This document shows, one piece after another, positions 5,888 to 24,459 of a DNA stretch of 57,833 nt. The notes beneath the pieces were generated by a model. That model saw nothing but the letters and a program-made list of their open reading frames with translations. It did no database searches and had not been told where the DNA came from. Source of the stretch: an uncultured Sporosarcina sp. Lineage in GTDB: Bacteria > Bacillota > Bacilli > Bacillales_A > Planococcaceae. Numbering within the stretch: the stretch's first letter is position 1; each line of letters begins with the position of its first letter. The stretch is from contig CAOKMT010000013.1 of the NCBI GenBank assembly GCA_948469885.1, forward strand, positions 1 through 57,833, written 5' to 3'. Position numbers and translations under genes: made by a program.

Positions 5888-5996
5888 GACATTTCAGCTA
5901 AAAACAATAGATTTCCGTTTGGGCTTTTCATATTTCCAACCTTTTCTACCACCGTGATTTTTAAAATTCCTAATATTCCTTTTATTTGCCCAGTCC

Positions 5997-6023: not shown

Positions 6024-6069
6024 CATTTATAGTAGGTATCATTTACCAGGAAAGAAGAGAGGGTGTTCC

Positions 6070-8136: not shown

Positions 8137-9699
8137 CTATCGGGAAGGAACTTTCGCGACTTGCTCACGAAGGGCTGTCTTCAATATTTTTCCTGCAGCT
8201 GACTTCGGTAAATCTTCTACGAACTCCACTGATTTTGGCACTTTGTACCGACTTAACAGTTCTCGACAGCGCCTCAACAACTCTTCTTCGGATAATTCCG
8301 TTTCCGGTTTCAACACGACAAAAGCCTTCACGGCCTCTATCCATTTTGCATCAGGGACACCAATGATTGCCGCTTCTAATACTTCCGGACTTTGGTATAT
8401 CGCGTTCTCCACTTCCACAGAATAAATATTGAGCCCGCCCGAAATGATCATATCCTTCTTGCGATCTGCAAGGTAAATGTATGCATCTTCTCCGAAATAG
8501 CCCATGTCTCCGGTATAGTACCAGCCGTCTTTCAAAACTTCCGCCGTCTCTTCAGGCTTGCGCCAATACCCTTTCATAATATTAGGACCCTTCGCGATAA
8601 TTTCTCCAACCTCTCCTTCCCCAACGTCATTCCCTTTCGGATCGATGATACGAAGTTCCACCCCGATCACTTGTCTTCCGACGGATAGTAACCGCTTCTT
8701 CACTTCTTCCGCTTCAGTGTCAAACCCTTCCTGATGGTCTTCCTCTGTCAATGAAGACAAGACCGGCGAAGCTTCCGTCATTCCATAGTTTGCAGAAAAA
8801 TTGCAATCGAACACCTGGCGAGCTTTCTCCAAAATTTCAAACGGCATCGGCGAAGCCCCGTACCTAATCGTCTTCAAACTAGTAAATTGATATGCCTCCA
8901 CTGTTGGATGATGAATAAGCATATTGATCATCGAAGGGACTAGCGTCACACGCGTCACTTGATACTTGTCGATTTTTTCAAAGATCTCCTCCGGATCAAA
9001 TGTCGCATTCATGCAATGCGCCGCCCCGATTGTCGTGAAGATGAAGATAGGAACACTACCCGCCAAATGGAACATCGGGTTCACGTGAAAGTAAATGTCT
9101 TCAGATGAGTACCGGTTCATCATTAATGTATGATAAATATTCGCTACTAAGTTTTTATGACTGAGCATAACACCTTTCGCTTTCCCTGTTGTGCCGCCTG
9201 TATAATAAATTCCCGCAATATCATCCTCGTCTATTTCAACTTCTTGAAATTCCCCTGCTTCTTCCAATAAGTCATCGTATGGCAATGTCCCGACTACGGA
9301 TGCATCTTTCTCTTTTGAAACATAGACAAAATGTTGAATCGATGTCTTCGTTTTGATAGAAGGAAGTAAATGTATAAAATCTTGCCCTATAAACAAATGG
9401 CTCGGTGCACAATCGTTCAAAATGTATTCCATTTCGCTCAATGACATCTTTGTACTAATCGGCGAAAAAATCGCCCCGATCATTAAAGAGGCATACTTAA
9501 TCTCGATAAACCTGTAATTGTTATTCATTAGTATTCCGATTCTATCGCCTTTCTTCACACCTTGTATTTGAAGATTTTTCGCGAGTAGCTTAATCCGGGC
9601 ATATAATTCCTTATAAGTTAGTCGGACTTCTTCATCAAGCACGGCGTATTTATCGGGATAATGCTTGACTGAAGCTTGTAACCCTTTCGTCAGAAGCAT
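8137..9699 (-). CDS. Acyl-CoA synthetase (AMP-forming ligase)
   Basis: A 520-residue ANL-superfamily ligase that activates a carboxylic acid to its acyl-CoA through an acyl-AMP. Visible motifs are the P-loop YYTGGTTGKAKGVMLSH, NYGMTEASP, GWYYTGDMGYFGEDAYIYLADRKKD with the hinge, and the catalytic lysine in PKSAAGKILKTALRE near the C-terminus. I choose ATG 9699 (MLLTKGLQAS) because GAGGAAGGTGG lies just upstream; a longer open frame to 9885 runs through the sigma-54 promoter and is not coding. It faces the sigma-54 activator gene and has a -24/-12 promoter 58 bases upstream. The substrate is unknown; medium- or long-chain or aromatic acids are possible. It is a distinct paralogue of the ligase at 13004-14551. 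Confidence 0.93.
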   Translation of the reverse strand: MLLTKGLQASVKHYPDKYAVLDEEVRLTYKELYARIKLLAKNLQIQGVKKGDRIGILMNNNYRFIEIKYASLMIGAIFSPISTKMSLSEMEYILNDCAPSHLFIGQDFIHLLPSIKTKTSIQHFVYVSKEKDASVVGTLPYDDLLEEAGEFQEVEIDEDDIAGIYYTGGTTGKAKGVMLSHKNLVANIYHTLMMNRYSSEDIYFHVNPMFHLAGSVPIFIFTTIGAAHCMNATFDPEEIFEKIDKYQVTRVTLVPSMINMLIHHPTVEAYQFTSLKTIRYGASPMPFEILEKARQVFDCNFSANYGMTEASPVLSSLTEEDHQEGFDTEAEEVKKRLLSVGRQVIGVELRIIDPKGNDVGEGEVGEIIAKGPNIMKGYWRKPEETAEVLKDGWYYTGDMGYFGEDAYIYLADRKKDMIISGGLNIYSVEVENAIYQSPEVLEAAIIGVPDAKWIEAVKAFVVLKPETELSEEELLRRCRELLSRYKVPKSVEFVEDLPKSAAGKILKTALREQVAKVPSR

Positions 9700-9756: not shown

Positions 9757-9772
9757 TGCAAGAAACATGCCA
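9757..9772 (-). promoter_or_regulatory. Sigma-54 (-24/-12) promoter of the first ligase gene
   Basis: Minus strand TGGCAT-N5-TTGCA: the GG and GC dinucleotides have the exact sigma-54 spacing. It lies 58 bases upstream of the ligase start, with the twin dyads about 75-110 bp further upstream. Confidence 0.85.
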
Positions 9773-9847: not shown

Positions 9848-9884
9848 TGTCCACTTAACCGGACACTGTCTTCATTTGTATACA
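9848..9884. promoter_or_regulatory. Tandem dyad operator (probable UAS for the sigma-54 activator), copy A
   Basis: Two 18-bp dyads separated by one base: TGTCC-N8-GGACA (9848-9865) and TGTCT-N8-ATACA (9867-9884). The same arrangement recurs at 21263-21299, and 23 of 24 bases are identical from the GGACA arm onward. It lies upstream of a -24/-12 promoter and 67 bases before the activator's own start, so it may also serve autoregulation. Confidence 0.8.
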
Positions 9885-9951
9885 AATTTTAAAAGGGATC
9901 TAACAGTTTTTGTGGAAGTTACTTTCAAGAGATATAAAGGAGTGTGAAGTT

Positions 9952-12108
9952 GTGTTTGTCTATGAATGTATGAATCGCAAGTTCTCCGTATTGAAACCGA
10001 ACAGTACATTTCGTGAAGCCTTACTTTTATTCAGACGAGAAAAAACCGGTATATTACCGATTATCAATGAAGATCACACGCTTTGTGCGGCGATTAGTCA
10101 ATACTCTCTTTTTCAAGCACTACTGGACGACCATTCTTTGGATGACGTCATCACCCCGTATACAATTCACGATGTCGTCACGGTCTATGCCGACGATACA
10201 ATTACGAATGCACGAGATTTTTTGCTGCAAAAGCAAGTGATCCATGCAATTGTCATTTCACAAGATCATCAAGTGTGCGGTATTTTAGGCAGAGCGGATT
10301 TAATGCGCACATCCCGGTTAATGATCCAAAAATCGCGTCGGCGCAACGCGACATTGACGAACTCCTTACAATCTTTAATCCAACACTTGCCGACCGGCAT
10401 TGTTGCGGTCGATAAAAAAGGCGCCATTCAAGTGATGAACCGGGCCGCAGAAAAAATGTTCGCGCTTTCAGAATCCAATTGTTTAGGACAATCCTTATCC
10501 ACAGTCCTTCCTGAACTGGATGAAGTGCTAGAGCTGAACGGTGAAATGCCTTATCAAAAAATAGCGCTCAAAGGAAATGAACTCCTTGTCAACGCGAAAA
10601 CCTTTTCCGAAGATGAACACCTGTGGGGTAGTTTGGTCATATTGCAACATTTCACGGACTATGAAAAGGTAGCCAATGAACTGGCATCGACGAAAGAACT
10701 GAAACAAACCTTGCAAACCGTCGTAGATACAGCGTATGACGGCCTCATTTTAATCGACGAAAAAGCAGATATCCAAATGATCAACGATGCGATTTGCCAA
10801 CTCGGAAACTATTCAAAAGACGAACTCATCGGACAACCGGTCGATCGATTTTTCCCCGAACTTAAATTGACGGAAACTTTGGATAATGGAATCCAAAAAA
10901 GCAATATCGAAGCGATTATTATGGGTGAACATCGGACACTCGTTTCTAAAATTCCCATTATACAAAATGAACAAACCGTCGGCGTCATCGCCAATATGAC
11001 GTATCGGAATTTAAACAAGTGGAAAGATGTCATTCAAAACTTGGATCACTTAAAAAAAGAAGTTTCCTATTATCGAGGCGAACTTTCACGATTGGAAGGG
11101 ACGCCATTCGATTTGGATGATATCCTAACGCAAAATGAAGAAATGATTCAACTGATCCGAACAGCCCGCCAAGCAGCGTCCGGTTTTTCTAATGTTTTAT
11201 TGCTTGGAGAAAGCGGGACGGGGAAAGAACTATTTGCGCGCGGAATTCATACCGCATCCAAACGGTCAGGCCGTCTCGTTTCCATCAACTGCGCAGCCGT
11301 GCCTTTCGATCTGTGGGAATCTAAAATCTTTGGCTATGAAGAAGGCGCTTTTACGAGTGCGAAACGCGGCGGCAAGCCCGGAAAATTTGAATTGGCGCAT
11401 AACGGGACGCTCTTTCTCGATGAAATTGGCGATATGCCGCTCGATATGCAAGTGAAATTATTACGGGTTCTTCAAGAAAGGGAATTTGAAAGAATCGGTG
11501 GCACGAAGACAATTCAAGCGAACGTCCGAATCATTGCCGCCACGAATAAGAATTTAGCGCAAATGGTCGCGGATGGCACTTTTCGGGAAGACCTTTTTTA
11601 TCGGCTGAACGTCATCCCGCTTCGCATTCCACCGCTACGCCGCCGAAAAGACGATATTCCAATTTTAGCGATGGCCATCGGCAAAAAGTTTAGCCATTTA
11701 ATGGATACAGGACCGATTGCCATGAACGAGGACGTATTCACTTTGCTCTGTTCCCACCATTGGCCCGGCAACGTACGCGAACTAGAAAATGTGATTGAAC
11801 GGGCAATGAACGTCATGGCCGGAAATTTATTAACCGCCGATCATTTTCCAGATTATCCCGGAGAGGGTGAAAAAAGCCATGATGAACAGCAACTGATTCC
11901 CCCTTTTCCGCAAGATGGTTTTCACGTCGGGAAAAAGAAAAATAAAGAGGCAGGTGTAAATTATAAAAACAAAGTGCAAGCGGCTGAGAAAGAGGCAATT
12001 GCATTGGCCTTACAAGCAACAGGTGGAAACCGTACTGCCGCCGCAAAATCACTCGGCATCAGCCGTTCCCAACTGTACAAGAAATTGAACCAGTACAGCA
12101 TTACATGA
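9952..12108 (+). CDS. Sigma-54-dependent transcriptional activator with CBS and PAS domains
   Basis: A 718-residue bacterial enhancer-binding protein. In order: a CBS-domain pair (about 1-125), PAS 1 (about 140-245, with SLIQHLPTGIVAVDKKGAIQV), PAS 2 (about 260-365), the AAA+ domain with Walker A GESGTGKE (419-426), the sigma-54 contact loop GAFTSA (465-470, consensus GAFTGA), Walker B FLDEIGD (about 488-494) and a Fis-type helix-turn-helix at the C-terminus (GGNRTAAAKSLGISRSQLYK). I place the start at GTG 9952 because AAAGGAG lies nine bases upstream; the open frame from 9910 lacks one. CBS domains commonly bind adenine nucleotides, so it may sense energy state or an adenylated metabolite; that is inference. 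It is divergent from one acyl-CoA ligase and its probable operators lie at 9848-9884 and 21263-21299. Confidence 0.95.
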   Translation: MFVYECMNRKFSVLKPNSTFREALLLFRREKTGILPIINEDHTLCAAISQYSLFQALLDDHSLDDVITPYTIHDVVTVYADDTITNARDFLLQKQVIHAIVISQDHQVCGILGRADLMRTSRLMIQKSRRRNATLTNSLQSLIQHLPTGIVAVDKKGAIQVMNRAAEKMFALSESNCLGQSLSTVLPELDEVLELNGEMPYQKIALKGNELLVNAKTFSEDEHLWGSLVILQHFTDYEKVANELASTKELKQTLQTVVDTAYDGLILIDEKADIQMINDAICQLGNYSKDELIGQPVDRFFPELKLTETLDNGIQKSNIEAIIMGEHRTLVSKIPIIQNEQTVGVIANMTYRNLNKWKDVIQNLDHLKKEVSYYRGELSRLEGTPFDLDDILTQNEEMIQLIRTARQAASGFSNVLLLGESGTGKELFARGIHTASKRSGRLVSINCAAVPFDLWESKIFGYEEGAFTSAKRGGKPGKFELAHNGTLFLDEIGDMPLDMQVKLLRVLQEREFERIGGTKTIQANVRIIAATNKNLAQMVADGTFREDLFYRLNVIPLRIPPLRRRKDDIPILAMAIGKKFSHLMDTGPIAMNEDVFTLLCSHHWPGNVRELENVIERAMNVMAGNLLTADHFPDYPGEGEKSHDEQQLIPPFPQDGFHVGKKKNKEAGVNYKNKVQAAEKEAIALALQATGGNRTAAAKSLGISRSQLYKKLNQYSIT

Positions 12109-12152
12109 TGGCCTAAGATAACTTGGCACCACCTAAAATCTTCAAGAAAGAG

Positions 12153-12180
12153 AGGAACCGCCCAAAAAGATGGGCGGTCC
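12153..12180. terminator. Bidirectional terminator between activator and crotonase genes
   Basis: Stem GGAACCGCCCA/TGGGCGGTCC with one bulged base and an A-rich loop, followed by TTTGCC on the plus strand. It sits between the converging ends of the activator gene and the 12.2-21.1 kb operon. Confidence 0.7.
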
Positions 12181-12193
12181 TTTGCCTAATACT

Positions 12194-12973
12194 TCATTCT
12201 CCCACAAATTGGGGCGTTCTTTTTTCCTTAAATGCTTGAACACCTTCTTGATGATCTTGCGTCTGAAATAAAATGGCTTGCCCGAAACCTTCCAATTCTA
12301 ATATATCTTCAAGACTTTTGTTGAAACCGCCGTCAATGATCGATTTCGTATAGCTGAGAGCTTGCACCGGTCCACTCGCCAATTCGGAAGCCAATACTTT
12401 GGCATTTTCAAATACCTCTTCCGGCGCAACCACATGATTGATGAATCCATACCGCTCACCTTCTTCCGCTGTAATCACGGCGCCCCGCCAAATCAATTCC
12501 TTCGCTTTCCATGGGCCGAGCACTTTCGATAAGAAATAATGCGCACCACAGTCCGGGATCGCCCCTAGGTTTTTGAATGCCAACCCAAACTTTGTTCCTT
12601 CCGCGGCAATGATCATATCCGAAGCGAGCGCAATACTGAAACCAGCACCGAAAGCATAGCCGTGAACCGCCGAAATAACCGGCTTAGGCATAGAATGAAT
12701 TTGCTGGATAAGCTTCGCCGCCCCGTTCATCCGTTGCTTCATTTTCACAGCGGGGATCCCCGCCCCCATCGTCTTAATATTGCCACCTGCGCAGAATCCT
12801 TTTCCGTTCCCTTTCAATATGACCACTTTTACGTCGGCGTCTTCTTCACAATCCGTCAATGCGGCCATCAACCCTTCTTTCAGCGGTCCGCTCATCGCAT
12901 TACGGGTTTCAGGTTCGTTAAAAATAATCGTCGCGACCCCTTCACTTTTTTCCACGATAACACTTGCTTCCAT
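12194..12973 (-). CDS. Enoyl-CoA hydratase/isomerase family protein (PaaG-like active site)
   Basis: A 259-residue crotonase-fold enzyme. The oxyanion-hole segments are present (FCAGGN near 60-65 and FGAG at 108-111). Both classical hydratase glutamates are replaced: the GGGCE position reads GAGFS (Ser113) and the QPEI position reads LAFK (Phe133). In their place Asp141 occurs in IPDCGAHYFL, the arrangement known from PaaG-type isomerases. I therefore expect isomerisation or ring/double-bond handling, not plain hydration, which the MaoC pair upstream could supply. It is the last gene of the sigma-54 operon, 30 bases after the second ligase. Confidence 0.88.
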   Translation of the reverse strand: MEASVIVEKSEGVATIIFNEPETRNAMSGPLKEGLMAALTDCEEDADVKVVILKGNGKGFCAGGNIKTMGAGIPAVKMKQRMNGAAKLIQQIHSMPKPVISAVHGYAFGAGFSIALASDMIIAAEGTKFGLAFKNLGAIPDCGAHYFLSKVLGPWKAKELIWRGAVITAEEGERYGFINHVVAPEEVFENAKVLASELASGPVQALSYTKSIIDGGFNKSLEDILELEGFGQAILFQTQDHQEGVQAFKEKRTPQFVGE

Positions 12974-13003
12974 TGTCTATCCCGCCTTTTCCTGTTTTGA
13001 TCT

Positions 13004-14551
13004 TTACTGCATTACATTGACTTCTTTTCTTAATTGCCGCTTCAAAATCTTACCGGATGGATTCCGTGGGAGTGTATCTAAAAACACCAACTCTTTTACT
13101 TTTTGGTAATTCGCTAGATGACTATTCGCAAAAGTGATGAGCGCCTCTTCGGATTGTTTTCTACTCTCCCGTAAAACGACATACGCCTTGGCGGCTTCCC
13201 CCCATTTTTCGTCCGGCATGCCGATGACGGCCACTTCCAGAACGTCGGGATGCGTATAGAGTACTTGTTCAATATCGCGGGGATACACATTGACACCGCC
13301 GCTAATGATCATGTCTTTTTTTCGGTCAAGTAAATAATAAAATCCATCTTCATCCACTTTTCCCATATCCCCTGTTTTGAACCAGCCGCCAGGCAGAAAC
13401 GCTTTCTCTGTTTCATCGGCTTGTTTGTAGTAACCGCAAAATAACAAAGGACCGCGGACTGCGAATTCCCCTTCTTCACCAATGCTGACATCTTTTTCAT
13501 TGTCGTCGAGCAAACGCACTTCCATGTAGCCGACTTGTTGACCGACGCTCGCCGTTTTCTTAATCACATCTTTCGGCTGCTGAATAATATAAGCACCTGT
13601 TTCTGAAGAACCGAAAAACTCCAATAACCCACAACCGAATTTATCCACAATCGTCTTTTTCACTTCTTTGGCAAGTGGGGAGCCCGCGCTGACCAATAAT
13701 TGCAAAGAACGTAAATCATAATTGCTGAATGCAGGCACTTGTAACAAAGCGATATATTGAGACGGGACGAAAAAGGCTTGCGACACTTGTTGGCATTCAA
13801 TCGTCTGCAAAGTCGCTTCAGGATCAAACTCACGTGTGATGACCACTTTCACTCCAAGGATAGCCGGTCTGAAGACGAGTCCAAATCCGACCGCATGGTA
13901 TATCGGCACAGTAATTAACATGACATCCCTTGCCCCGGTCTTCCAATCAATCGCCGACCGCAATATGCGGTATACATTCTTTTCATGGGTGATCATAATG
14001 CCCTTTGGTTCAGATGTCGTCCCCGAAGAAAAAAGGATTGCAAATAAATCGCTTGAGCATACGGCCACGCCCGGATCTTCCATGGCGCCTTTATTCATAA
14101 GGGATTCATACTGAACATACGCTTTCTCGCTTTCTGAACCGATCAAAATTGTCGATCGCTCGACAATCGTGTTCAGCCGTCCGCGGATACACTCGAATTT
14201 TTCCAGTTGCTCGCTTTCGACGAATATATATTTAGCATCCGATTGATTAAGTAAAGTTGCCAAGTTCTCCCCTTCAACCATATAATTGATCGGAATCGAC
14301 ACTGCGCCAACTGTGGAAATCGCGTAGAGCGCTTCCATCATTTCAATCCGGTTACGCATATACAAGGCAATAGGGTCACCTTTTCGAACACCTATTTCAA
14401 GCAAAGAATTCGCTAACTTATTGACCCGCCCATAAAGTTCCTGAAACGTCAACGACTGTTCCCCGTACACGACCGCCACATCATTCGGCCGATTTTTCGC
14501 GTGTACTTTTAACCCCGCATGCACACTCCCGATATCCAAGTTCTGAAACAC
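13004..14551 (-). CDS. Acyl-CoA synthetase (AMP-forming ligase), second paralogue
   Basis: A 515-residue ANL ligase. The adenylate P-loop reads LFSSGTTSEPKGIMITH, the A5-type motif FFGSSETGAYI follows, then GWFKTGDMGKVDEDGFYYLL, the hinge DRKKDMIISGGVNVYP and the catalytic lysine in PRNPSGKILKRQLR. It belongs to the same family as the 8137-9699 ligase but differs throughout, so the two may take different acids. It lies 47 bases after the last TRAP-type binding protein and 30 bases before the crotonase gene, which ties import, activation and oxidation together. Nothing in the sequence reveals the chain length or ring content of the substrate. Confidence 0.93.
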   Translation of the reverse strand: MFQNLDIGSVHAGLKVHAKNRPNDVAVVYGEQSLTFQELYGRVNKLANSLLEIGVRKGDPIALYMRNRIEMMEALYAISTVGAVSIPINYMVEGENLATLLNQSDAKYIFVESEQLEKFECIRGRLNTIVERSTILIGSESEKAYVQYESLMNKGAMEDPGVAVCSSDLFAILFSSGTTSEPKGIMITHEKNVYRILRSAIDWKTGARDVMLITVPIYHAVGFGLVFRPAILGVKVVITREFDPEATLQTIECQQVSQAFFVPSQYIALLQVPAFSNYDLRSLQLLVSAGSPLAKEVKKTIVDKFGCGLLEFFGSSETGAYIIQQPKDVIKKTASVGQQVGYMEVRLLDDNEKDVSIGEEGEFAVRGPLLFCGYYKQADETEKAFLPGGWFKTGDMGKVDEDGFYYLLDRKKDMIISGGVNVYPRDIEQVLYTHPDVLEVAVIGMPDEKWGEAAKAYVVLRESRKQSEEALITFANSHLANYQKVKELVFLDTLPRNPSGKILKRQLRKEVNVMQ

Positions 14552-14598
14552 CTCTTTCCCTTAAATGACGAATCGTCACTCAAAAATGATGTACACGA

Positions 14599-15663
14599 TC
14601 AGTTGTATTTTTTCACTTCTTCCCGGAATGCCTCCAACGTTTTTTCTAGCTCATGATTATTTTTTTCTTTTAAATAACTTTCTTCCACTTCATTATAAAA
14701 TTTTTGCCACTGTGCCCGTTCCTCTTCAGACAACGCATAGATTTCAGCCCCATTCTCCTTAAACTCTTGGATAGCATTTTGGCTGTATTCGTCCATCATC
14801 CTTGCATTCTTCTCCGTATACTCATCCCCAACTTGGACAAGTACTTCTTGCACATTTTCCGGTAGTCCTTGAAAGACCTTTTCATTAATAATTAAACCAG
14901 TGGCACCTCCACCAAAGTCGACACCAGATGTTCCGAATTTGATCAATTCACCCAATCCGTAATCTTTCGTTGAACCAGGATTCAAAACAAGTGAATCAAA
15001 AACGCCTCTTTCCAATCCTTCATACAACTCCGATAATGTAATATTGATCGGGGATGCGCCAATCGTTGGCATTGCTTTATTAGCTAACTCTCCGGACACT
15101 CTTACTTTCGACCCCTTAAGATTTTCAGGAACTTTGATTACTTTTCCTGCTGTCCAAATTTCCGATGAGGTGGCGGCATAGCTGAATAACGGTCTCACGT
15201 TATTACTTAGAAAATCCGATTCCAACATTGGACTTTTTTTGCTTAATTCGTGAAGAACCATTGAACCTTCATAGGAGGTGGAATGCAATCCAGGGATATC
15301 CATAATGGCAGCAGTGATTGGCATTTGACTTGAATAATACGGGCCGATATAAAAGCCGATATCCGTTACACCTGTTGTCGTCAACTCCAACAAATCCGCA
15401 ACTTTCCCCAATTGCTCCGCCGGATAAAACTCAAATTCAACTTGTCCATCGGTCAACGCTGTCACCTTTTCCATGAAAGGTTTAAAAGTTCCCGTTGTGA
15501 TCGTATGCGTTTCAGGTTGGGATACCGCAAATTTCAATATGATTTTCTCACTGACCTCGTCCCCTTGTACCGTGTCCTTTCTTTCTGCCTCTGCATCGCT
15601 ACATGCAACAATGGTTAATAAAAGAGCAACGAACAGAAATACCTTTAAAATGGCTTTCCCCAT
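14599..15663 (-). CDS. TRAP-type (DctP family) solute-binding lipoprotein 1
   Basis: A 354-residue DctP-family binding protein with a lipoprotein signal: hydrophobic stretch, then LTIVAC with the lipidated cysteine at 21. Family landmarks are KFAVSQPETHTI, FEFYPAEQLGKVADLLELT, LKGSKVRVSGE (the conserved arginine that binds the substrate carboxylate) and FGTSGVDFGGG. It is the third of three tandem paralogues of identical length. No membrane (DctQ/DctM) genes lie nearby, so the permease must be elsewhere or the proteins act otherwise. DctP proteins bind carboxylic acids, which fits the neighbouring ligases. GGAGG lies seven bases upstream of the ATG. Confidence 0.9.
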   Translation of the reverse strand: MGKAILKVFLFVALLLTIVACSDAEAERKDTVQGDEVSEKIILKFAVSQPETHTITTGTFKPFMEKVTALTDGQVEFEFYPAEQLGKVADLLELTTTGVTDIGFYIGPYYSSQMPITAAIMDIPGLHSTSYEGSMVLHELSKKSPMLESDFLSNNVRPLFSYAATSSEIWTAGKVIKVPENLKGSKVRVSGELANKAMPTIGASPINITLSELYEGLERGVFDSLVLNPGSTKDYGLGELIKFGTSGVDFGGGATGLIINEKVFQGLPENVQEVLVQVGDEYTEKNARMMDEYSQNAIQEFKENGAEIYALSEEERAQWQKFYNEVEESYLKEKNNHELEKTLEAFREEVKKYN

Positions 15664-15693
15664 CTTTCCACCTCCATGTCATTTCAACTTGCC

Positions 15694-16758
15694 TCACTCC
15701 ACCTTTTCGATAGCACTTCGATAAGTCTCCAAAACATCTTTTAAATCTTCATTGTTTTGCGCTTGTAGCCATTCTTGCTCAAATTCGTCATACACCTCTT
15801 GCCATTCCGCTTTTTCAGCAGCAGACAGTTCATGCACTTCCCCGCCATCTTCCACGAATTTTTTCATGACATTCTGTGTAACTTCATCAAAGTGTTGGGC
15901 ATAAGCGATAGACATGTCAGCTCCGACTTCCATCAATGCTTTCTGGACATGTTCTGGTAAACTTTGATACGTCTTTTCATTGATTAAGATATTGGAAGAG
16001 AGGCCGCCAAATGAAACACCAGCTGTTCCGAATCCTGCTAGTTCTTCCAAACTGTAATCTTTTAACGATCCGGCTCCGAGTGCTACGGCGCCGAACACTC
16101 CTCTTTCAAACCCTTCATAAGTTTCCGCAGCGGTCATATTGATAGGTGTTGCGCCAAACTTCGCCACAAGCTTATTCAATATTTCACCAGTCACTCTCAC
16201 TTTCTCGCCCTTCAAATCTTTCGGAGCTTTAATTTCTTTGCCTCTTGTCCAAAGTTCATAAGGAGGTAGCGCATAGCTGAATACCGGACGCACTCCGTTA
16301 TTTAAAAAATCAGTTTCCAACACAAGATCTTGTTGAACCAACGCTTGCAAAGCAGAGGTGCCTTCGTATGCTGTGTCATACAATCCCGGCAAACTTACTA
16401 GGCCGCTCGTAATCGGCAAGCTACTCGGATCATAACTCGCAATGAAAAAACTAAGATCCGTTACACCGTCACTCGTCAATTGATACAAATCTGCAGCTTT
16501 GCCAAGTTGCTCAGAAGGATAAAATTCAAACTCGACCTGGCCATCCGTCATTTCGGTCACTTTTTCCATGAACGGAACAAATGCCCCTTCATATAAACTA
16601 TGGCTCTCCGCTTGGGATACCGCAAACTTCAACGTGATCGGTTCATCCGACGAACCGGCTTGTGCATGATTTTGACCATCTGTACTATTGCCATTACACG
16701 CCGTTAACGCGAATAACACGCAAAAAAACAGGAATGCCATTATGGTATTTCTCTTCAT
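15694..16758 (-). CDS. TRAP-type (DctP family) solute-binding lipoprotein 2
   Basis: A second 354-residue DctP-family lipoprotein (LFALTAC, Cys21). It is clearly related to its two neighbours but is the most divergent: where the others have DIGFYI or DISFFI followed by YYSSQMP or YYPSQMP, this one reads DLSFFIASYDPSSLPI. The ligand arginine segment is LKGEKVRVTGE. The C-terminal helix region also differs. A different ligand or affinity within one substrate class is likely. GGGGGA lies upstream of its ATG. The gap to copy 1 is 30 bases. Confidence 0.9.
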   Translation of the reverse strand: MKRNTIMAFLFFCVLFALTACNGNSTDGQNHAQAGSSDEPITLKFAVSQAESHSLYEGAFVPFMEKVTEMTDGQVEFEFYPSEQLGKAADLYQLTSDGVTDLSFFIASYDPSSLPITSGLVSLPGLYDTAYEGTSALQALVQQDLVLETDFLNNGVRPVFSYALPPYELWTRGKEIKAPKDLKGEKVRVTGEILNKLVAKFGATPINMTAAETYEGFERGVFGAVALGAGSLKDYSLEELAGFGTAGVSFGGLSSNILINEKTYQSLPEHVQKALMEVGADMSIAYAQHFDEVTQNVMKKFVEDGGEVHELSAAEKAEWQEVYDEFEQEWLQAQNNEDLKDVLETYRSAIEKVE

Positions 16759-16794
16759 TTTTCACATCCCCCTTCTACATGTCTATACGAAATC

Positions 16795-17859
16795 TTAGTT
16801 ATAATTTTTAATTGCTTCTTTAAAGTCATCTAATGTTTTTTCAATATCCGGATTGCTTTGCTCTTTGACCCATTTTGCTTCAACCTCACTATAAAACTTC
16901 TGCCATTGAGCTTTTTCTTCCTCTGACAATTCATACATTTGTATTCCTTGGTCTTTAAAGTCTTCAATAATATTCTGTACATATTCATCCGTTCTGATTG
17001 CATTGCTTTCTGTAAGTTCATCACCCACTTGAACAAGGATTTCTTGTACATTTTCCGGCAACCCTAGGAATACTTTTTCATTAATAATTAGTCCTGTACC
17101 TGATCCGCCAAAATCAATCCCGACAGTTCCAAACTTAATGATTTCCCCCAATCCGTGATCTTTCGTTGATTGCGGGTTTAAATTGAGCACGTTAAAAACA
17201 CCTCTATCAAATCCTTCGTACAACTCCGACAACGATATATTGATAGGTGATGCGTCGAGAGCAACTGTCGCTCGATTCAACACTTCTCCAGTAACTCTCA
17301 CTTTCATCCCTTTTAAATCCTCTGGGACTTTTATTTCCTTGCCCGTTGTCCATAGCTCCCCCGGCGGTGCATCATAACTGAATAATGGTCGGACGCCATT
17401 CCTTAAGAAATCGGTCTCTAGCACCGGATCTTGTTTACTTAGTTCATGGTAGGCCATCGTTCCTTCATGCGAGGTAGAATACAATCCCGGTATGCCAATG
17501 AGCGCACTTGTAATCGGCATTTGACTTGGATAATAGGTAGAAATAAAAAAACTGATATCAGCAACTCCATCACGCGTTAAATCCATTAAATCAGCAAATT
17601 TCCCTAATTGTTCCGCAGGATAAAATTCAAACTGAACTTGCCCGTCAGTTAACTCTGTCACTTTTTCCATAAACGGTTTAAACACTTCGGCAGTGAGTGA
17701 ATGAGTTTCGGATTGGGCAGTGGCAAATTTCAACGTAATCGTTTCACCCGTCTCACTTGCTTGCACATCGTTTTGACTATCTGCATTGTCTTCATTGCAG
17801 GCAGCCAACATAAGCAAGACACATGCAAGGAGGAATACCGCCGACTTCATTCTTTTCAT
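16795..17859 (-). CDS. TRAP-type (DctP family) solute-binding lipoprotein 3
   Basis: The first of the three tandem paralogues in transcription order. I start it at ATG 17859 because GGGGG lies seven bases upstream; this gives 354 residues and Cys21 (LLMLAAC), matching both neighbours exactly in length and signal layout. Landmarks are FATAQSETHSL, FEFYPAEQLGKFADLMDLT, LKGMKVRVTGE and FGTVGIDFGGSGTGL. It is closer to copy 1 than to copy 2. A strong hairpin at 17899-17932 separates it from the acyl-CoA dehydrogenase gene, so the binding proteins may be made at a different level from the enzymes. Confidence 0.9.
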   Translation of the reverse strand: MKRMKSAVFLLACVLLMLAACNEDNADSQNDVQASETGETITLKFATAQSETHSLTAEVFKPFMEKVTELTDGQVQFEFYPAEQLGKFADLMDLTRDGVADISFFISTYYPSQMPITSALIGIPGLYSTSHEGTMAYHELSKQDPVLETDFLRNGVRPLFSYDAPPGELWTTGKEIKVPEDLKGMKVRVTGEVLNRATVALDASPINISLSELYEGFDRGVFNVLNLNPQSTKDHGLGEIIKFGTVGIDFGGSGTGLIINEKVFLGLPENVQEILVQVGDELTESNAIRTDEYVQNIIEDFKDQGIQMYELSEEEKAQWQKFYSEVEAKWVKEQSNPDIEKTLDDFKEAIKNYN

Positions 17860-17898
17860 GATTTTGCCCCCTGGTTTCCAGCTCATTTTTGGTACAAA

Positions 17899-17932
17899 AA
17901 AGGTTGTCGAAATATTTTTTCCGACAACCTTT
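17899..17932 (-). terminator. Hairpin between acyl-CoA dehydrogenase and binding-protein genes
   Basis: Perfect 11-bp stem AAAGGTTGTCG/CGACAACCTTT, followed on the minus strand by TTTTGTACC. It is either a terminator or a partial terminator/processing site that sets the ratio between upstream enzymes and downstream lipoproteins. Confidence 0.7.
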
Positions 17933-17969
17933 AACGACTAAGACAAGTAACCTACGACTTTATCTCTTC

Positions 17970-19142
17970 TTATAAACCAAGATTTTTGGCAATGATGACT
18001 TTCATAATTTCATTGGAACCTGCGAAAATCGGATTAGCCGCGATGTCGCGATAACAGCGAGCGATTTCATATTCCTCCATGAAACCATAGCCGCCGTGAA
18101 GTTGCATACATTCCGGTGCAATTTTACGCGCCATGTCGGAAATCCACCATTTCGCCATTGAGACGGCGGTGACAACTTCTTCCCCATTCATATGTTTGAC
18201 GATCAAGTCGTCGATAAACGTCCGCCCCAGTTGGACTTCCGTCGCCATTTCCGCCAGTTTGAATTGCGTGTTCTGAAAACTGCCGATCGGTTGTCCAAAC
18301 GCTTTCCGCTCTTTCACATACTGCAATGTCAAATCGAGCATTTTCTCTGCCATCACTTGCGCCCGCAGTACACTAATGATCCGCTCTTGTTGCAACTTGT
18401 TCATCAAATAATAAAAGCCTTTGCCTTCTTCTCCAAGCAGATTGTTAACCGGGACACGAACGTCTTCAAAAAAGAGCTCTGCCGTGTCTTGGCTGCGCAT
18501 GCCGACTTTTTCAAGTTTGCGACCACGTGAAAAGCCCGGCGTATTCTGCTCGACAAGAATGAGGCTGATCCCTCTATGGGCAGGCGACGCAGTCGGGTCC
18601 GTTTTACAAGCAACGATAATCAGATCCGAATGGATGCCGTTCGAGATGAACGTCTTTTGTCCATTGATGACATAGTGGTCACCGTCTTTTACAGCGGTTG
18701 TCCCAATACTTGCCAAATCGGAACCGACTTTCGGCTCCGTCATCGCCACAGCCGTGATAATATCTCCGCTTACACATCCCGGCAAATATTTCTCTTTCTG
18801 CGCATCCGTTCCATATGCCGCGATATAAGGAACGATGATGTTACTGTGTAAGGGGATCCCCGACAATCCGGCTCCGACCCGGCCGAATTCCTCGGTTTGA
18901 ATGATAGAAAAGATGAAATCCGCATCCAGTCCGCCATACTGCTCTTCTACCCAAGGGCATAGAAAACCGTTGTCTCCTACCTTTTTCCAAAATGCACGCG
19001 GGATGATCCCTTCTTTTTCCCACTCATCAAAATGAGGAACCGCTTCCTTTTCAAGAAACTTCCTTAAGGAATCCCGAAACAATAAATGCTCTTCTTTTAA
19101 ATAAGATTGACCTGTTTTATGAGATGCCACCATACCAACCAT
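17970..19142 (-). CDS. Acyl-CoA dehydrogenase (long-chain-type active site)
   Basis: A 390-residue FAD-dependent dehydrogenase that makes 2-enoyl-CoA. The flavin/substrate segments AMTEPKVGSDLASI (near 133-146) and the C-terminal RCYRDIAANPIFAGSNEIMK are typical. The usual catalytic Glu of medium- and short-chain enzymes (YEGT) is absent: the position reads FAGS. A glutamate is instead present at 253 in LQQERIIS, the place used by long-chain and isovaleryl-type enzymes, so the enzyme should be active. It lies 24 bases after the MaoC gene. The electron acceptor (ETF) is not encoded nearby. Confidence 0.94.
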   Translation of the reverse strand: MVGMVASHKTGQSYLKEEHLLFRDSLRKFLEKEAVPHFDEWEKEGIIPRAFWKKVGDNGFLCPWVEEQYGGLDADFIFSIIQTEEFGRVGAGLSGIPLHSNIIVPYIAAYGTDAQKEKYLPGCVSGDIITAVAMTEPKVGSDLASIGTTAVKDGDHYVINGQKTFISNGIHSDLIIVACKTDPTASPAHRGISLILVEQNTPGFSRGRKLEKVGMRSQDTAELFFEDVRVPVNNLLGEEGKGFYYLMNKLQQERIISVLRAQVMAEKMLDLTLQYVKERKAFGQPIGSFQNTQFKLAEMATEVQLGRTFIDDLIVKHMNGEEVVTAVSMAKWWISDMARKIAPECMQLHGGYGFMEEYEIARCYRDIAANPIFAGSNEIMKVIIAKNLGL

Positions 19143-19166
19143 GACTTCTACATCCCCTTCTTGGAT

Positions 19167-19601
19167 CTACCGTTGATTGCCCACTAAGTTCTGCTCAACT
19201 TTAGAAGGAAGTTTCGCTTCAAAAGTACCTGCCACTTTTACTTCCCCTTTATCATTCAACGCGACGACTTCCCCGACGATCTTATTATCATCATGCTTCT
19301 CCAACACTTTACCAACGATTTCGATCGCTTCTCCGGGCTTCGTCATCTTCTGGAAACGGACTTTCAGTTTGCTCACATTTTTCCGAGGGATCCAAGTCGT
19401 CACCCCTTGCGACACCATTCCCATGATAAGCATGCCATGGGCGATGAGGCCTGTCCCGGCTTGCTCTCCTACTTCTTCGACCGTATGAAGCGGATTGAAA
19501 TCACCCGATGCGCCAGCGTACTTGACGAGTTGAACACGTGTAATCGGTTCTTTCTTCAAAACCGGAAATGAATCTCCTACATTCAAATCTTCATAGAACA
19601 T
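19167..19601 (-). CDS. MaoC-like dehydratase, catalytic subunit
   Basis: A 144-residue hot-dog-fold protein of the MaoC/(R)-hydratase family, which hydrates 2-enoyl-CoA. The catalytic pair is visible in GDFNPLH (Asp34 and His39), followed by GLIAHGML. I start it at ATG 19601, nine bases after AAGGAG; an upstream in-frame TTG at 19622 overlaps the previous gene and lacks a site. The adjacent gene encodes the partner half that lacks the histidine, so a heteromeric hydratase is likely. Confidence 0.92.
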   Translation of the reverse strand: MFYEDLNVGDSFPVLKKEPITRVQLVKYAGASGDFNPLHTVEEVGEQAGTGLIAHGMLIMGMVSQGVTTWIPRKNVSKLKVRFQKMTKPGEAIEIVGKVLEKHDDNKIVGEVVALNDKGEVKVAGTFEAKLPSKVEQNLVGNQR

Positions 19602-19618
19602 TTGCCCTCTCTCCTTCC

Positions 19619-20071
19619 TCAATGACGGTGCACTGTCGTATTTCTTGAAATCGCTGCCAATTCGCCCCGTTGGTTTTTGTAACGGTTTTCGGTCTTAATA
19701 AGATCCATGCCGCCCGAAGCGCCTTTTTTCACTTTCACATCGATCACTTTACTGTTGACCGTTAATACATCGCCCGGATAAATATCGAGCAGATGCTCGT
19801 ACTCCTGTTCTCCGTGTAAAATCTTCACAGGGTTCAGTTTCAGGATTTTCATCTTTTCATCGAAACTGTAACCGCCCCACGTATCGACGACTTGCAAAAA
19901 TGTAAGTGGGATCGGGACATCATCAAAGCCCGCCTCCTGTGCCGCCTCTTTACTTTGATAAATCGGATTGTCATCCCCGATGGCAGCAGCGAGCTCTTTG
20001 ATCTTCCCTTTTTCTATCTCAAAGCTATACGGCTCGTATTCCAAGCCGATCAATTCTTTTACATTGGACAA
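19619..20071 (-). CDS. MaoC-like N-terminal-type hydratase subunit (non-catalytic half)
   Basis: A 150-residue protein resembling the FAS1-like/MaoC N-terminal hot-dog domain. At the equivalent of the catalytic site it reads IGDDNPIY, keeping the acidic residues but lacking the histidine. Such halves pair with a catalytic MaoC half in two-gene hydratases (for example the Had-type pairs of actinobacteria). The gene ends 17 bases before the catalytic subunit's start, so the pair is probably made together. The exact role of this half (shaping the acyl pocket) is inference from the family. Confidence 0.88.
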   Translation of the reverse strand: MSNVKELIGLEYEPYSFEIEKGKIKELAAAIGDDNPIYQSKEAAQEAGFDDVPIPLTFLQVVDTWGGYSFDEKMKILKLNPVKILHGEQEYEHLLDIYPGDVLTVNSKVIDVKVKKGASGGMDLIKTENRYKNQRGELAAISRNTTVHRH

Positions 20072-20130
20072 ATCCAGTCACCTCTCCCTATTTTAAAGGC
20101 GCCAAACATTGACACCCTCGTCGTTATCGC

Positions 20131-21066
20131 TTATTTCATTTCGACTTTGACTTTCCCAATGAGCGGATCATACGGGAAAACGTCTGCGGATACTTCCAAT
20201 GGTGTGAAATCAGATTTGAACGACTCTTTCATCTGGCTGAGGCTCTCCACATCCCAACCTTCCGAATTATATGCGGAACGCACCGGGCGCGGTTGGGAGA
20301 ACAGGATGATCTCGTCTCCTCTCACACCGAAAATCTGACCACTTACATCGGACGCATCGTCAGTCGCCAAATAAGCAACAATTGGCGCAATCAATGCAGG
20401 CGTCATTTGTTGGATCTTCCCGACTCTTTCCTTCTGATCATCCGTCTCTGTTGGAATCGTCCCGATCAATCGACTCCAAGCGAAAGGTGCGATGGCATTC
20501 GCTGTCACATTGTAACGCGCCATATCTAACGCTGTTGAATTTGTTAAACCGAAAATGCCTAGTTTGGCCGCAGCGTAGTTTCCTTGTCCGATATTCCCAA
20601 TCAACCCTGAAGTAGATGTGAAGTTGATGAACCTACCTCTTTTTTCTTCTTTGAAGTACGGAGCCGCCGCACGGGTCATATTGAAACTCCCTTTTAAGTG
20701 AACAGCGATGACCGAATCCCATTCTTCCTCGGACATTTTGAAAATCATTCGGTCCCGTAAAATCCCCGCATTGTTGACAACTATATCTAATCTACCGAAT
20801 CCATCCAACGCCTGTTGCACCATTTTTTCCGCGTTTTCCAATTCGGAGACCGAGTCATAATTCGCAATCGCTTCGCCGCCTGCCGCTTTGATTTCTTGGA
20901 CGACCTGGTCAGCAACTTGAATATCGTTACCTGCCCCGTCAGGTCCTCCTCCTAAATCATTGACGACGACTTTCGCGCCTTCTTTCGCCATTAAAAGTGC
21001 AATTTCCCGTCCAATGCCACGACCTGCTCCTGTCACGATTGCCACTTTACCATTTAAATTCCCCAT
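20131..21066 (-). CDS. Short-chain dehydrogenase (probable 3-hydroxyacyl-CoA dehydrogenase)
   Basis: A 311-residue SDR. Cofactor motif TGAGRGIG at 12-19, NNAG at 98-101, and the catalytic set Ser151, Tyr164 and Lys168 (STSGLIGNIGQGNYAAAK). The string VVVNDLGG after the second strand points to NAD(H) use. Its C-terminal extension and length resemble the dehydrogenase part of peroxisomal-type multifunctional enzyme 2, which fits work on 3-hydroxyacyl-CoA made by the MaoC pair. It is the first gene of the long sigma-54 operon, with GGAGGGG just upstream of the ATG. No thiolase follows in the operon. Confidence 0.92.
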   Translation of the reverse strand: MGNLNGKVAIVTGAGRGIGREIALLMAKEGAKVVVNDLGGGPDGAGNDIQVADQVVQEIKAAGGEAIANYDSVSELENAEKMVQQALDGFGRLDIVVNNAGILRDRMIFKMSEEEWDSVIAVHLKGSFNMTRAAAPYFKEEKRGRFINFTSTSGLIGNIGQGNYAAAKLGIFGLTNSTALDMARYNVTANAIAPFAWSRLIGTIPTETDDQKERVGKIQQMTPALIAPIVAYLATDDASDVSGQIFGVRGDEIILFSQPRPVRSAYNSEGWDVESLSQMKESFKSDFTPLEVSADVFPYDPLIGKVKVEMK

Positions 21067-21149
21067 TCAATTCCCCTCCATTTTTCTCCTTGTAAAATTG
21101 GTGACTTCTCCCGATCCATCTACAATCCAGCCACTCTACTCAATACAAT

Positions 21150-21165
21150 TGCAAGTTATGTGCCA
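21150..21165 (-). promoter_or_regulatory. Sigma-54 (-24/-12) promoter of the SDR-MaoC-ACAD operon
   Basis: Minus strand TGGCAC-ATAAC-TTGCA: a full consensus match for a sigma-54 promoter, 84 bases upstream of the SDR start codon. The twin dyad operator lies about 100-130 bp further upstream. Confidence 0.92.
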
Positions 21166-21262
21166 ACTTATTTTTCACTAAGAAAAACTTCTAATCTTGT
21201 GATTCCACTACACTTTCATAGAATGCGCCGGCATGGATGCAAAGAATTAAATGGACACTTCT

Positions 21263-21299
21263 TGTCTTTTTGCGTGGACACTGTCTTCATTTGTAGACA
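21263..21299. promoter_or_regulatory. Tandem dyad operator (probable UAS), copy B
   Basis: Two 18-bp dyads one base apart: TGTCT-N8-GGACA (21263-21280) and TGTCT-N8-AGACA (21282-21299), the same layout as at 9848-9884. An extra GGACA half-site is at 21253-21257. It lies in the gap between the nhaC-like gene's end and the SDR gene. Confidence 0.82.
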
Positions 21300-21340
21300 C
21301 TCAGAAATAAACTCATTTATTTTGACATGAACCAAAAAAA

Positions 21341-21367
21341 GCTAAGAACATATAGCATGTTCTTAGC
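21341..21367 (-). terminator. Terminator after the NhaC-like gene
   Basis: Perfect 11-bp stem GCTAAGAACAT/ATGTTCTTAGC followed by seven T on the minus strand. The stop codon of the antiporter gene lies inside the stem. Confidence 0.88.
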
Positions 21368-22646
21368 CTGAAACATTTTTCTTCAATTTTGGATAACCGA
21401 TCAAAATCGCAACAACACAACAAATCCCCATCAACACCGGATAAAACGAATACATCATAATACTCAACGGCGAAATCGCTGCAAGTCCTGCCGCAGCAAG
21501 TAATTGAGCACCATAAGGCAAAACCCCTTGCCAACAGCTCGAAAACGTATCCAATAAGCTTGCCGACTTTCTCGGATCGATTTCATACTCGTCCGCAATT
21601 TGTTTGACGAGCGGGCCTGTAATAATAATCGCTATCGTATTATTCGCCGTCGCAATATCTGCGGCACTTACTAAACCGGCAATGCCGAACTCGGCTCCTT
21701 TTTTTGTTTTCACTTTACGTGTAATCGCCCGAAGTAAATAGTCGATCCCACCATTATGCTGAATGATGCCAACAATCCCACCGATTAAAATAGACACAAT
21801 CGCCAAGTCTTCCATCGTCATAATGCCTTCAGCCGCCACTTGCAATAAACTACTTAAATGATAAGACCCATCAATCAGTCCAATCACGCCCGCAAAAATC
21901 GTGCCGCCTACTAATACAACCAACACATGTGCGCCCGACAAGGCTGCAACCAAAACGGCAATATACGGGAGTATTTTCATTAACTCATACGAATATTCTC
22001 CAACAAGCGCCCCTTCAGTTCCCTGCGTCAGTACCCCGAGAATAAACATCGTCAAGAGTGCCCCTGGGAGTACAATCCAAAAATTCACTTTAAATTTATC
22101 TTTCATTTTCGTACCTTGCGTTCGAACCGCTGCAATCGTTGTATCTGAAATCATCGACAAATTATCCCCGAACATCGCGCCTCCGACAACCGTTGCCATC
22201 GCAAGTGCGACCGGGACCCCTGTCTCACTCGCAATACCGACACCGATTGGCGCAAGTGCCACAATGGTCCCCATCGAAGTTCCCATCGAAACAGAGATGA
22301 AACAACCGATCACGAACAAGCCAACTATCAACAAATTCGCAGGTAGTAAAGATAACCCTAAATTTACAGTCGACTCAACAGCGCCCATGCCTTTTGCAAC
22401 ACCCGCAAAAGCTCCAGCCAAAATAAAAATGACCGCCATTAAAATAATGTTCGGATGCCCTGCACTTTTAGTAAAAACTTCAACCTTTTGACTAAACGCC
22501 TTTTGCCGGTTCATCAAAATCGCAACATTCAACGGCATCCTCGAAAAATCTTTCGTCAAAACACCTGAACCGATAAAAAGAAAGACAAAAATAAATAAAG
22601 GCAAAAACGCAAAGAGACTTCCTTTTTTCATTTCCTCACTCGACAT
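21363..22646 (-). CDS. NhaC-family Na+/H+ antiporter-like transporter
   Basis: A 427-residue polytopic membrane protein with about 11-12 hydrophobic segments. The NhaC-family string MFGDNLSMISDTTIAA is present, with SMGTSMGTIVALAPIGVGIA before it and ADIATANNTIAIIITGPL near the C-terminus. Members exchange Na+ and H+, and some exchange organic ions such as amino acids, so the substrate is open. It stands alone: the terminator after it and 140 bases before the next upstream gene isolate it. It lies between the acyl-CoA operon and the second flagellin gene, without a clear link to either. Confidence 0.88.
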   Translation of the reverse strand: MSSEEMKKGSLFAFLPLFIFVFLFIGSGVLTKDFSRMPLNVAILMNRQKAFSQKVEVFTKSAGHPNIILMAVIFILAGAFAGVAKGMGAVESTVNLGLSLLPANLLIVGLFVIGCFISVSMGTSMGTIVALAPIGVGIASETGVPVALAMATVVGGAMFGDNLSMISDTTIAAVRTQGTKMKDKFKVNFWIVLPGALLTMFILGVLTQGTEGALVGEYSYELMKILPYIAVLVAALSGAHVLVVLVGGTIFAGVIGLIDGSYHLSSLLQVAAEGIMTMEDLAIVSILIGGIVGIIQHNGGIDYLLRAITRKVKTKKGAEFGIAGLVSAADIATANNTIAIIITGPLVKQIADEYEIDPRKSASLLDTFSSCWQGVLPYGAQLLAAAGLAAISPLSIMMYSFYPVLMGICCVVAILIGYPKLKKNVSG

Positions 22647-22787: not shown

Positions 22788-23603
22788 TCATTGCTTTAAT
22801 AATTGCAAAACGGATTGCGCTTGTTGCATATGCAACGCGAGTATATGCTGGCTCGCTTGCAGTAAAATATTCGCTTTCGTCAGGGCCATCATTTCTTTGG
22901 CAATATCAGTATCCCGAATACGGGACTCGGCAGCCGTCAAGTTCTCTTCCATAACCGCCGCATTATTGTAAGCATGTTCAAGTCGATTCACGTAAGCCCC
23001 CATACGAGAACGTTCCGAGGAAACTTTTCCGATCGCCTCATCCAACAGCCCAATCGACTCGTCCGCCTGCTCCCGAGTAAGGAGGGATGCGTCTTCCAAT
23101 CCTAAAGCCCCTACCCCCATATCGCCGATCGAAAACTCGATCGACTGGCCTGCATTTGGTCCAGCTTGTGTCTTAAATGAAGATCGGGAACCATCCAATA
23201 GAGGAAGTGTATTAAAATTCGTATCCTTCGAATTCCGTTCAATCTCTTCTTTCAGTTGTTGAAATTCAATATCAAGCAACGCACGATCTACATCAGTCAC
23301 TGTATCACTCGCCGCTTGAACACTCAATTCACGCAACCGTTGCAACATCGCATGGGTTTCCTGCAACGCCCCCTCAGCCGTTTGGAATAAAGACATGCTG
23401 TCCTGTATATTCCGCTGGGCCACTTGCAACCCACGAATTTGCGCACGCATCCTTTCGGAAATGGCCAAGCCGGCAGGATCATCCGCCGCACGGTTAATGC
23501 GTAATCCTGAAGAAAGACGTTCCATCGAAAGCATCACTTGATTATTGTGCATATTCATATTGCGCAAAATGTTCAGCCCCATCGCATTCCAATTTCCCAG
23601 CAC
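22788..23603 (-). CDS. Second flagellin (short)
   Basis: A 271-residue flagellin. The N-terminal D0/D1 block (RLSSGLRINRAADDPAGLAISERM, residues about 29-52) and the C-terminal block (ENLTAAESRIRDTDIAKEMM...LLKQ) are both intact, joined by a short middle, so there is little or no D2/D3. It starts before the normal position with MLGNWNAMGLNILRNMNMHN in place of the usual MIINHN. The start is GTG 23603 with GGAGGAGG nine bases upstream. It has its own sigma-D promoter and is single-copy in its unit. The main flagellin Hag lies at 29652-30884. It may be a minor filament or hook-proximal subunit; that is inference. Confidence 0.93.
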   Translation of the reverse strand: MLGNWNAMGLNILRNMNMHNNQVMLSMERLSSGLRINRAADDPAGLAISERMRAQIRGLQVAQRNIQDSMSLFQTAEGALQETHAMLQRLRELSVQAASDTVTDVDRALLDIEFQQLKEEIERNSKDTNFNTLPLLDGSRSSFKTQAGPNAGQSIEFSIGDMGVGALGLEDASLLTREQADESIGLLDEAIGKVSSERSRMGAYVNRLEHAYNNAAVMEENLTAAESRIRDTDIAKEMMALTKANILLQASQHILALHMQQAQSVLQLLKQ

Positions 23604-23637
23604 CCCATCCCCTCCTCCAATCTATTCCTTTTCATTA

Positions 23638-23664
23638 TTATCGGCAAAAATGGAAGATTGTTAA
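23638..23664 (-). promoter_or_regulatory. Sigma-D promoter of the second flagellin gene
   Basis: Minus strand TTAA-N15-GCCGATAA: -10 matches 7 of 8 with correct spacing, 35 bases upstream of the GTG start. Confidence 0.85.
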
Positions 23665-23672
23665 TTGTTCAC

Positions 23673-23703
23673 AAAAAAATCCCTATCCATAGGTGGACAG
23701 GGA
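23673..23703 (-). terminator. Terminator after the coiled-coil gene
   Basis: Stem TCCCTGTCCA/TGGATAGGGA (one G-T pair) on the minus strand followed by seven T. It ends the unit of the 23760-24182 gene just before the second flagellin's promoter. Confidence 0.8.
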
Positions 23704-23759
23704 CTCGGTTTAATTTTATCAATGTTGACACATGGCTCGACATTGCTCAAAAACTGTAT

Positions 23760-24182: not shown

Positions 24183-24392
24183 CTACTCATCCCTCCATTG
24201 TAAATATTCATCGTACGTTTCGTTTCACAAGTATGGGGATCAATTAGTTCGTAAATGGGGATATCTTCATTTTACCATAAAAAACGGATCGATTGAAGCC
24301 TTTTTGTAGTTCGAAAAGCATTGGTAATCAGTGTATTGCCTATACACATTCTATAACGATTATTAGTAATTTTACGTCTATTATCCCTATCC

Positions 24393-24419
24393 TTCATTTC
24401 ATCTTTTCTAGGCCGAAGT
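24393..24419 (+). promoter_or_regulatory. Weak candidate sigma-D promoter of the second Cache chemoreceptor
   Basis: GCCGAAGT (6 of 8) at 24412-24419 with TTCA 15 bases upstream. The -35 is poor, so this is tentative. Confidence 0.35.
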
Positions 24420-24459
24420 ATAGATAGAACGAGACTTATTATGATAGAAGAGGTGCTTT

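Follow-up and report, generated by a model that had tools for sequence, protein, structure and literature searches.

Introduction

The question raised by this locus is which protein acts on two closely similar sites, each located upstream of a sigma-54 promoter, and what role the sites have there. They lie in a 57,833-nucleotide stretch of DNA from an uncultured Sporosarcina sp. (assembly GCA_948469885.1, contig CAOKMT010000013.1), the whole of which is referred to here as the window. Each site contains two tandem 18-bp dyads, and the gene for a sigma-54 activator (9952-12108) is placed between the two presumed targets. An initial annotation of the window had read the sites as binding sites of this activator. 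The present analysis uses the architecture of the sites, their rarity in the draft genome and their statistical link to one activator subfamily. It is likely that the sites are enhancers (upstream activating sequences), each for two dimers of this CBS-PAS-PAS activator, by which both acyl-CoA promoters would be opened.

Architecture of the operator sites

The exact form TGTCY-N8-RGACA occurs three times in the window, where 0.15 occurrences are expected from shuffling, and all three belong to the two sites (Table 1). The initial annotation had assigned this form to all four dyads, which holds for three; the distal dyad of operator 1 (9867-9884) ends in TATACA and is off by one base. The tandem dyads themselves were confirmed at both sites, with a start-to-start distance of 19 bp (about 1.8 helical turns). 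From the GGACA arm onward 23 of 24 bases match between the sites, as originally described. The two sites have 20 consecutive identical bases in common; apart from these, the longest words found in both promoter regions have 10 and 9 bases. The nearest dyad is 75 bp from the -24/-12 element at promoter 1 and 97 bp from it at promoter 2. The first gap agrees with the earlier value, the second had been given as 98 bp, and the difference of 22 bp (about 2.1 turns) is close to the two turns that had been noted. Matches to TGGCAYN5TTGCW with up to one mismatch number 8 in the window, compared with 3.9 expected.

Both operators would be intergenic, given the gene starts read from the sequence. In the mechanical list of open reading frames the activator begins at 9910, as against the GTG at 9952 read from the sequence. 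For target 1 the same list gives TTG 9885, which would overrun operator 1; the ATG at 9699, with its good ribosome site, was preferred. In addition, another half-site, TGGACAC, is found at 21252-21258, close to operator 2 on the side of its promoter, so that there may be a third, degenerate site.

Distribution in the draft genome

The draft genome of the organism comprises 3.59 Mb in 225 contigs and is 88% complete. It contains 11 exact single TGTCY-N8-RGACA dyads, including the three of the window, and all eight outside the window sit inside stop-to-stop frames of at least 100 amino acids. One of these eight (L052) has a one-mismatch -24/-12 element about 117 bp to its promoter side, within the same 189-residue frame. 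Because one-mismatch matches are frequent, this element was read as chance. Tandem TGT-N12-ACA pairs with a gap of 1-3 bases were found at five places, two of which are the window sites, compared with one for the reversed pattern and about one expected from composition. Among the three other places (L186-L188), one is inside an open frame, one is partly inside, and one is in no frame of at least 100 amino acids. No exact -24/-12 element was found in their 3-kb loci, and a one-mismatch match was found in L186. These three places are at about chance level.

Exact TGGCAYN5TTGCW matches number 14 in the draft genome. Any TGT-N12-ACA lies within 350 bp upstream in four of them and a tandem pair in two, which are the two window promoters only; for one of the 14 (L049), 84 upstream bases were examined. 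The initial annotation had proposed a genome scan of this kind and had named scatter of the repeat away from sigma-54 promoters as the outcome that would count against it. No such scatter was seen for the tandem pair. A stricter tandem pattern, TGTC-N10-GACA with a gap of 1-2 bases, catches operator 2 and misses operator 1 with its imperfect distal dyad. It was found in one of 260 genomes of the family, which is the own genome, and in four of 398 genomes of the class, namely the own genome and three of one genus, where it lies in open frames of more than 400 amino acids. The exact TGTC tandem variant does look local in distribution.

The activator protein

As had been stated earlier, a sigma-54 activator is encoded beside the first site. 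Its sigma-54 interaction AAA+ domain (PF00158) scored 224 bits against a curated cut-off of 20.2, and its C-terminal Fis-type helix-turn-helix (HTH) domain (PF02954) scored 51.4 bits against a cut-off of 22. The sensor part consists of CBS and two PAS stretches, and no receiver domain was found among the 16 families listed in the Pfam scan. The protein has the domains of a one-component Fis-type sigma-54 enhancer-binding protein and is predicted to activate sigma-54 promoters through hydrolysis of ATP; a sigma-54 gene is present in the draft genome. The best-scoring curated protein model was that of PrdR (NF041552), with 502.8 bits. Identification of the activator as PrdR was rejected, since this score is below the curated cut-off of 795.

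Comparison with related activators

Nearly full-length relatives of the activator have 33-42% identity, the best of those listed for 398 genomes of the class being at 42%. In the order (261 genomes), E values of at most 1e-150 were obtained only for the own genome and for two relatives of 37-38% identity. Activators were split by the position of Walker A and by frame length into 44 of the CBS-PAS type (group A, window included) and 29 others (group B). Two loci in which no frame was found (L016 and L157) are in neither group, and L016 was counted in the test of loci bearing a -24/-12 element. A scan of named genomes (best 80 of 205) returned matches mostly without the N-terminal part, and these were left out of the counts. 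CBS, PAS, AAA+ and HTH_8 were all found in each of the 10 group A members scanned. The loci are not fully independent; for example, the upstream region of L009 resembles those of L145 and L013, and similar dyads are found among L011, L012 and L014 and in L007 and L008.

An exact divergent -24/-12 element is located upstream of the activator gene in 15 of 75 loci (window included). TGT-N12-ACA was found in 14 of these 15, with 23 dyads in total, and 20 other spacers gave 0-6 each (mean 2.8). The one locus without it (L033) encodes an activator of another type than CBS-PAS. The 44 CBS-PAS-type regions contain 32 TGT-N12-ACA dyads in 21 regions, where other spacers average 7.8; the 29 other activators have 3 dyads, compared with 3.1. 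Because the excess is present in the former and absent in the latter, TGT-N12-ACA is tied to the CBS-PAS subfamily and not to activators generally. Close pairs of dyads peak at 20 bp from start to start (9 compared with 1.4 in the control), and these come from nine relatives; the window has 19 bp. Both dyads are perfect in three of the nine. When the window is left out, 30 dyads remain, spread over 20 of the 43 regions, and 9 loci have a pair spaced by 19 or 20 bp. Over 300 dinucleotide shuffles of these regions the means were 5.2 dyads, 4.9 regions and 0.12 pair loci, and none of the 300 reached the observed values.

A matrix built from 29 distinct dyads of the relatives ranked the four window dyads 2, 3, 4 and 7 of 57,812. 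In pair scores with this matrix the window sites were first and second (30.2 and 25.7), and third place scored 17.5. An alternative unit, GACA-N1-TGTC, was not preferred because TGT-N12-ACA also occurs singly and the junction is variable. ACA-N2-TGT is also raised (22 in the 44 regions), as expected from the 20-bp pairs, so that this count by itself is compatible with either register.

Evaluation of the proposed operators

The proposal that the sites are bound by the adjacent activator is well supported by this comparison, both in that the dyad follows the CBS-PAS subfamily and in the matrix ranks, and it falls short of proof. Several observations weigh against it. Binding is predicted from comparison, and no nearly full-length relative above 42% identity was found, so that orthologous operators could not be footprinted. 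A perfect dyad is missing in 23 of the 44 CBS-PAS-type regions. Among the nine relatives with a 20-bp pair, one dyad carries a mismatch in six, and in the stretch examined an exact divergent -24/-12 element is present in only five, with a one-mismatch element in two and none in two. The matrix is carried mostly by the arms, and the arms and frame were picked after the window had been seen. One of ten relatives' neighbourhoods (L191) is without any homologue of the window's acyl-CoA genes. Lastly, a second activator of the genome (L056), with a similar recognition helix, might bind the window sites too.

It is very improbable that the shared 24 bases are a chance match or a recently copied stretch without regulatory function. 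The 20 identical consecutive bases do take in part of the spacer, whose letters a palindromic operator would not by itself require. However, the identity ends at the operator edges, both copies are at activator-like distances from exact -24/-12 elements, and the 24-base stretch has no further copy in the genome within 3 mismatches. Binding by a different protein, be it one of the genome's other sigma-54 activators or a repressor whose gene lies elsewhere, is unlikely. Further activators are present in the genome, and the recognition helix of L056 is SRVSLYNKIKKY, as against SRSQLYKKLNQY in the window activator. In the L056 neighbourhood a lone TGT-N12-ACA (L037) also precedes an exact -24/-12 element by 108 bp, but its inner letters are TTTA and not of the TGTC type, and it has no tandem partner. 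Against any such protein is also the occurrence of the same dyad upstream of the adjacent activator's own relatives, whereas the other activators as a group have no excess of it. The L056/L037 locus (G000:C4, about 95782-97301) is itself a second sigma-54 activator with a divergent exact -24/-12 element.

A further explanation keeps the adjacent activator as the binding protein but holds that one dyad per promoter is enough and that the second is auxiliary. In several relatives (L010 and L150, for example) only one perfect dyad is present, and the test applied gave no close pair. Two dyads are, however, kept at both window promoters, and among the relatives pairs spaced by 19 or 20 bp are more numerous than in shuffles. 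This explanation is possible, with the balance tipped against it.

Fis-type activators bind as dimers to dyads of 17-18 bp and are hexamers when working. If each site is a two-dimer enhancer of the adjacent activator, the predicted binding, dimer number, cooperativity, signal and looping would be as follows. One Fis-type HTH dimer would occupy each 18-bp TGT-N12-ACA dyad, and two dimers 19 bp apart would stand on roughly the same face of the helix, which would raise the local concentration of AAA+ domains. The CBS/PAS part would read an inducing signal, perhaps acyl-CoA or a nucleotide. On this signal an AAA+ ring, seeded by the two dimers, would form and, through looping, make contact with the sigma-54 polymerase at its site 75 or 97 bp from the operator. 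This would open the promoters of the acyl-CoA ligase gene and of the series from the short-chain dehydrogenase/reductase (SDR) to the enoyl-CoA hydratase, and the 22-bp difference between the gaps would preserve phase.

Target genes and genomic context

Table 1. Positions in the window of the operators, promoters, genes and hairpins of the locus.
Feature	Position	Strand	Basis
Operator 1, promoter-proximal dyad TGTCCACTTAACCGGACA	9848..9865	no strand	exact TGTCYN8RGACA; rank 3 of 57,812 with relatives-only matrix
Operator 1, distal dyad TGTCTTCATTTGTATACA	9867..9884	no strand	exact TGT-N12-ACA, one mismatch to TGTCYN8RGACA; rank 2 of 57,812
Operator 2, promoter-proximal dyad TGTCTTTTTGCGTGGACA	21263..21280	no strand	exact TGTCYN8RGACA; rank 7 of 57,812
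Operator 2, distal dyad TGTCTTCATTTGTAGACA	21282..21299	no strand	exact TGTCYN8RGACA; rank 4 of 57,812
-24/-12 element of promoter 1 TGGCATGTTTCTTGCA	9757..9772	-	exact TGGCAYN5TTGCW
-24/-12 element of promoter 2 TGGCACATAACTTGCA	21150..21165	-	exact TGGCAYN5TTGCW
Sigma-54 activator, 718 amino acids	9952..12108	+	Pfam: CBS, PAS, PAS, AAA+, Fis-type HTH; GTG start, AAGGAG site
Target 1, acyl-CoA ligase (AMP-binding)	8137..9699	-	ATG at 9699 read from sequence; AGGTGG-like ribosome site
Target 2, likely operon	12194..21066	-	gene order and family matches; operon continuity predicted
Terminator-like hairpin after target 2	12155..12180	-	hairpin search
Terminator-like hairpin after NhaC-like gene, just upstream of operator 2	21339..21369	-	hairpin search

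Target 2 would comprise, in order, an SDR, a FAS1-like dehydratase half, a MaoC half, an acyl-CoA dehydrogenase, three DctP-type proteins, a second acyl-CoA ligase and an enoyl-CoA hydratase. Terminator-like hairpins number 20 in total, compared with 14.1 +/- 3.9 in shuffles, so that each is weak evidence by itself. The locus as a whole resembles a self-contained unit for the catabolism of a carboxylic acid. The three DctP-type genes, for solute-binding proteins of tripartite ATP-independent periplasmic (TRAP) transporters, stand in a row (14599-17886); the family scan covered the one at 14599-15663. No DctQ or DctM gene was found beside them among the open reading frames listed, and 25 DctM-family matches are found elsewhere in the genome.

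In 10 neighbourhoods hand-picked from the 44 group A loci, homologues of the window genes were found for acyl-CoA dehydrogenase in nine, ligases in eight and enoyl-CoA hydratase in six, with identities of 27-46%. At these identities the homologues are members of the same families and not necessarily of the same pathway.

The neighbours of the acyl-CoA locus are flagellar-type genes (FliS-, FliD-, FlaG- and flagellin-like) at 1975-7000 and chemotaxis-receptor-like genes at 22788-30884, labelled by eye from the translations. The locus is placed as though it had been inserted into a motility region. A run of amino-acid-type genes, also labelled by eye, occupies the minus strand at 33983-44988 (alanine-dehydrogenase-like, peptidase-like, two permease-like and aminotransferase-like), and a LysR-like regulator adjoins it at 45284-46243.

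Relation to known systems

The comparisons below refer to the available portions of the published texts. In Clostridiales, TGT and ACA arms with a spacer of 10-12 bp have been described for 15 of 39 activator groups (PrdR, CrbR and 13 others), and 32 of the groups have more than one site per promoter (PMC6615313). The earlier statement that the motif belonged to no described regulon was thus too strong. In Desulfovibrio, TGT and ACA half sites are spaced by 9, 11 or 12 bp (PMC4641369). The four window dyads, with a spacer of 12 and upstream of exact -24/-12 elements, have the form of TGT-N10-12-ACA upstream activating sequences. Because this motif class is published for Clostridiales, the window system is classed with an already known type of switch. 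The two share the arms, the spacer class, the frequent occurrence of several sites per promoter and the position upstream of -24/-12 elements (PMC6615313). In addition, activator genes in Clostridiales usually adjoin their targets, and CrbR controls an acyl-CoA operon (PMC6615313). However, the window differs in its TGTC arms, its 19-bp tandem spacing, its CBS-PAS-PAS activator and its host in Bacilli, and its gaps of 75 and 97 bp compare with mostly 100-250 bp in Clostridiales (PMC6615313).

GabR of Bacillus thuringiensis, likewise from Bacilli, is also similar: this one-component PAS-AAA+-HTH protein activates a catabolic operon, and its binding sequence occurs repeated upstream of a -24/-12 element (PMC4279683). 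Its sites, unlike those of the window, are 21-bp inverted repeats 5 bp apart within a 96-bp footprint, and its targets are gamma-aminobutyrate genes (PMC4279683). No CBS part of GabR is mentioned in the available portion of that text, whereas the window activator has one (PMC4279683). Predicted sigma-54 targets of Bacilli or Bacillota are enriched in acyl-CoA dehydrogenases, acyl-CoA synthetases and related dehydrogenases, in agreement with the presumed acyl-CoA targets of the window (PMC12316311). That study, as far as its available text goes, is a promoter prediction without assignment of activators or operators (PMC12316311). Among the open-licence papers listed, judged by title or by the available text, none was found that links tandem TGT-N12-ACA sites with CBS-PAS activators next to acyl-CoA genes of Bacilli. 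What seems new is the assignment of TGT-N12-ACA sites with a preferred tandem spacing of 19-20 bp to such activators.

The principles of sigma-54 control are unchanged by this finding. More tentatively, the CBS-PAS-PAS activators of Bacilli may be a subfamily not yet described, one that would sense acyl-CoA or energy state and would read an operator for two dimers (two TGT-N12-ACA dyads spaced by 19-20 bp) whose inner letters have drifted in each lineage; we consider this broader idea somewhat less likely than not. If it is true, co-evolution of HTH domain and operator would be readable across the subfamily. For a group of CBS-domain sigma-54 activators, the analysis yields a concrete, testable operator and two-promoter regulon, and it connects these activators with clusters of acyl-CoA genes in Bacilli. 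Annotation of such promoters could be helped by the tendency of distant relatives to have tandem dyads spaced by about 20 bp.

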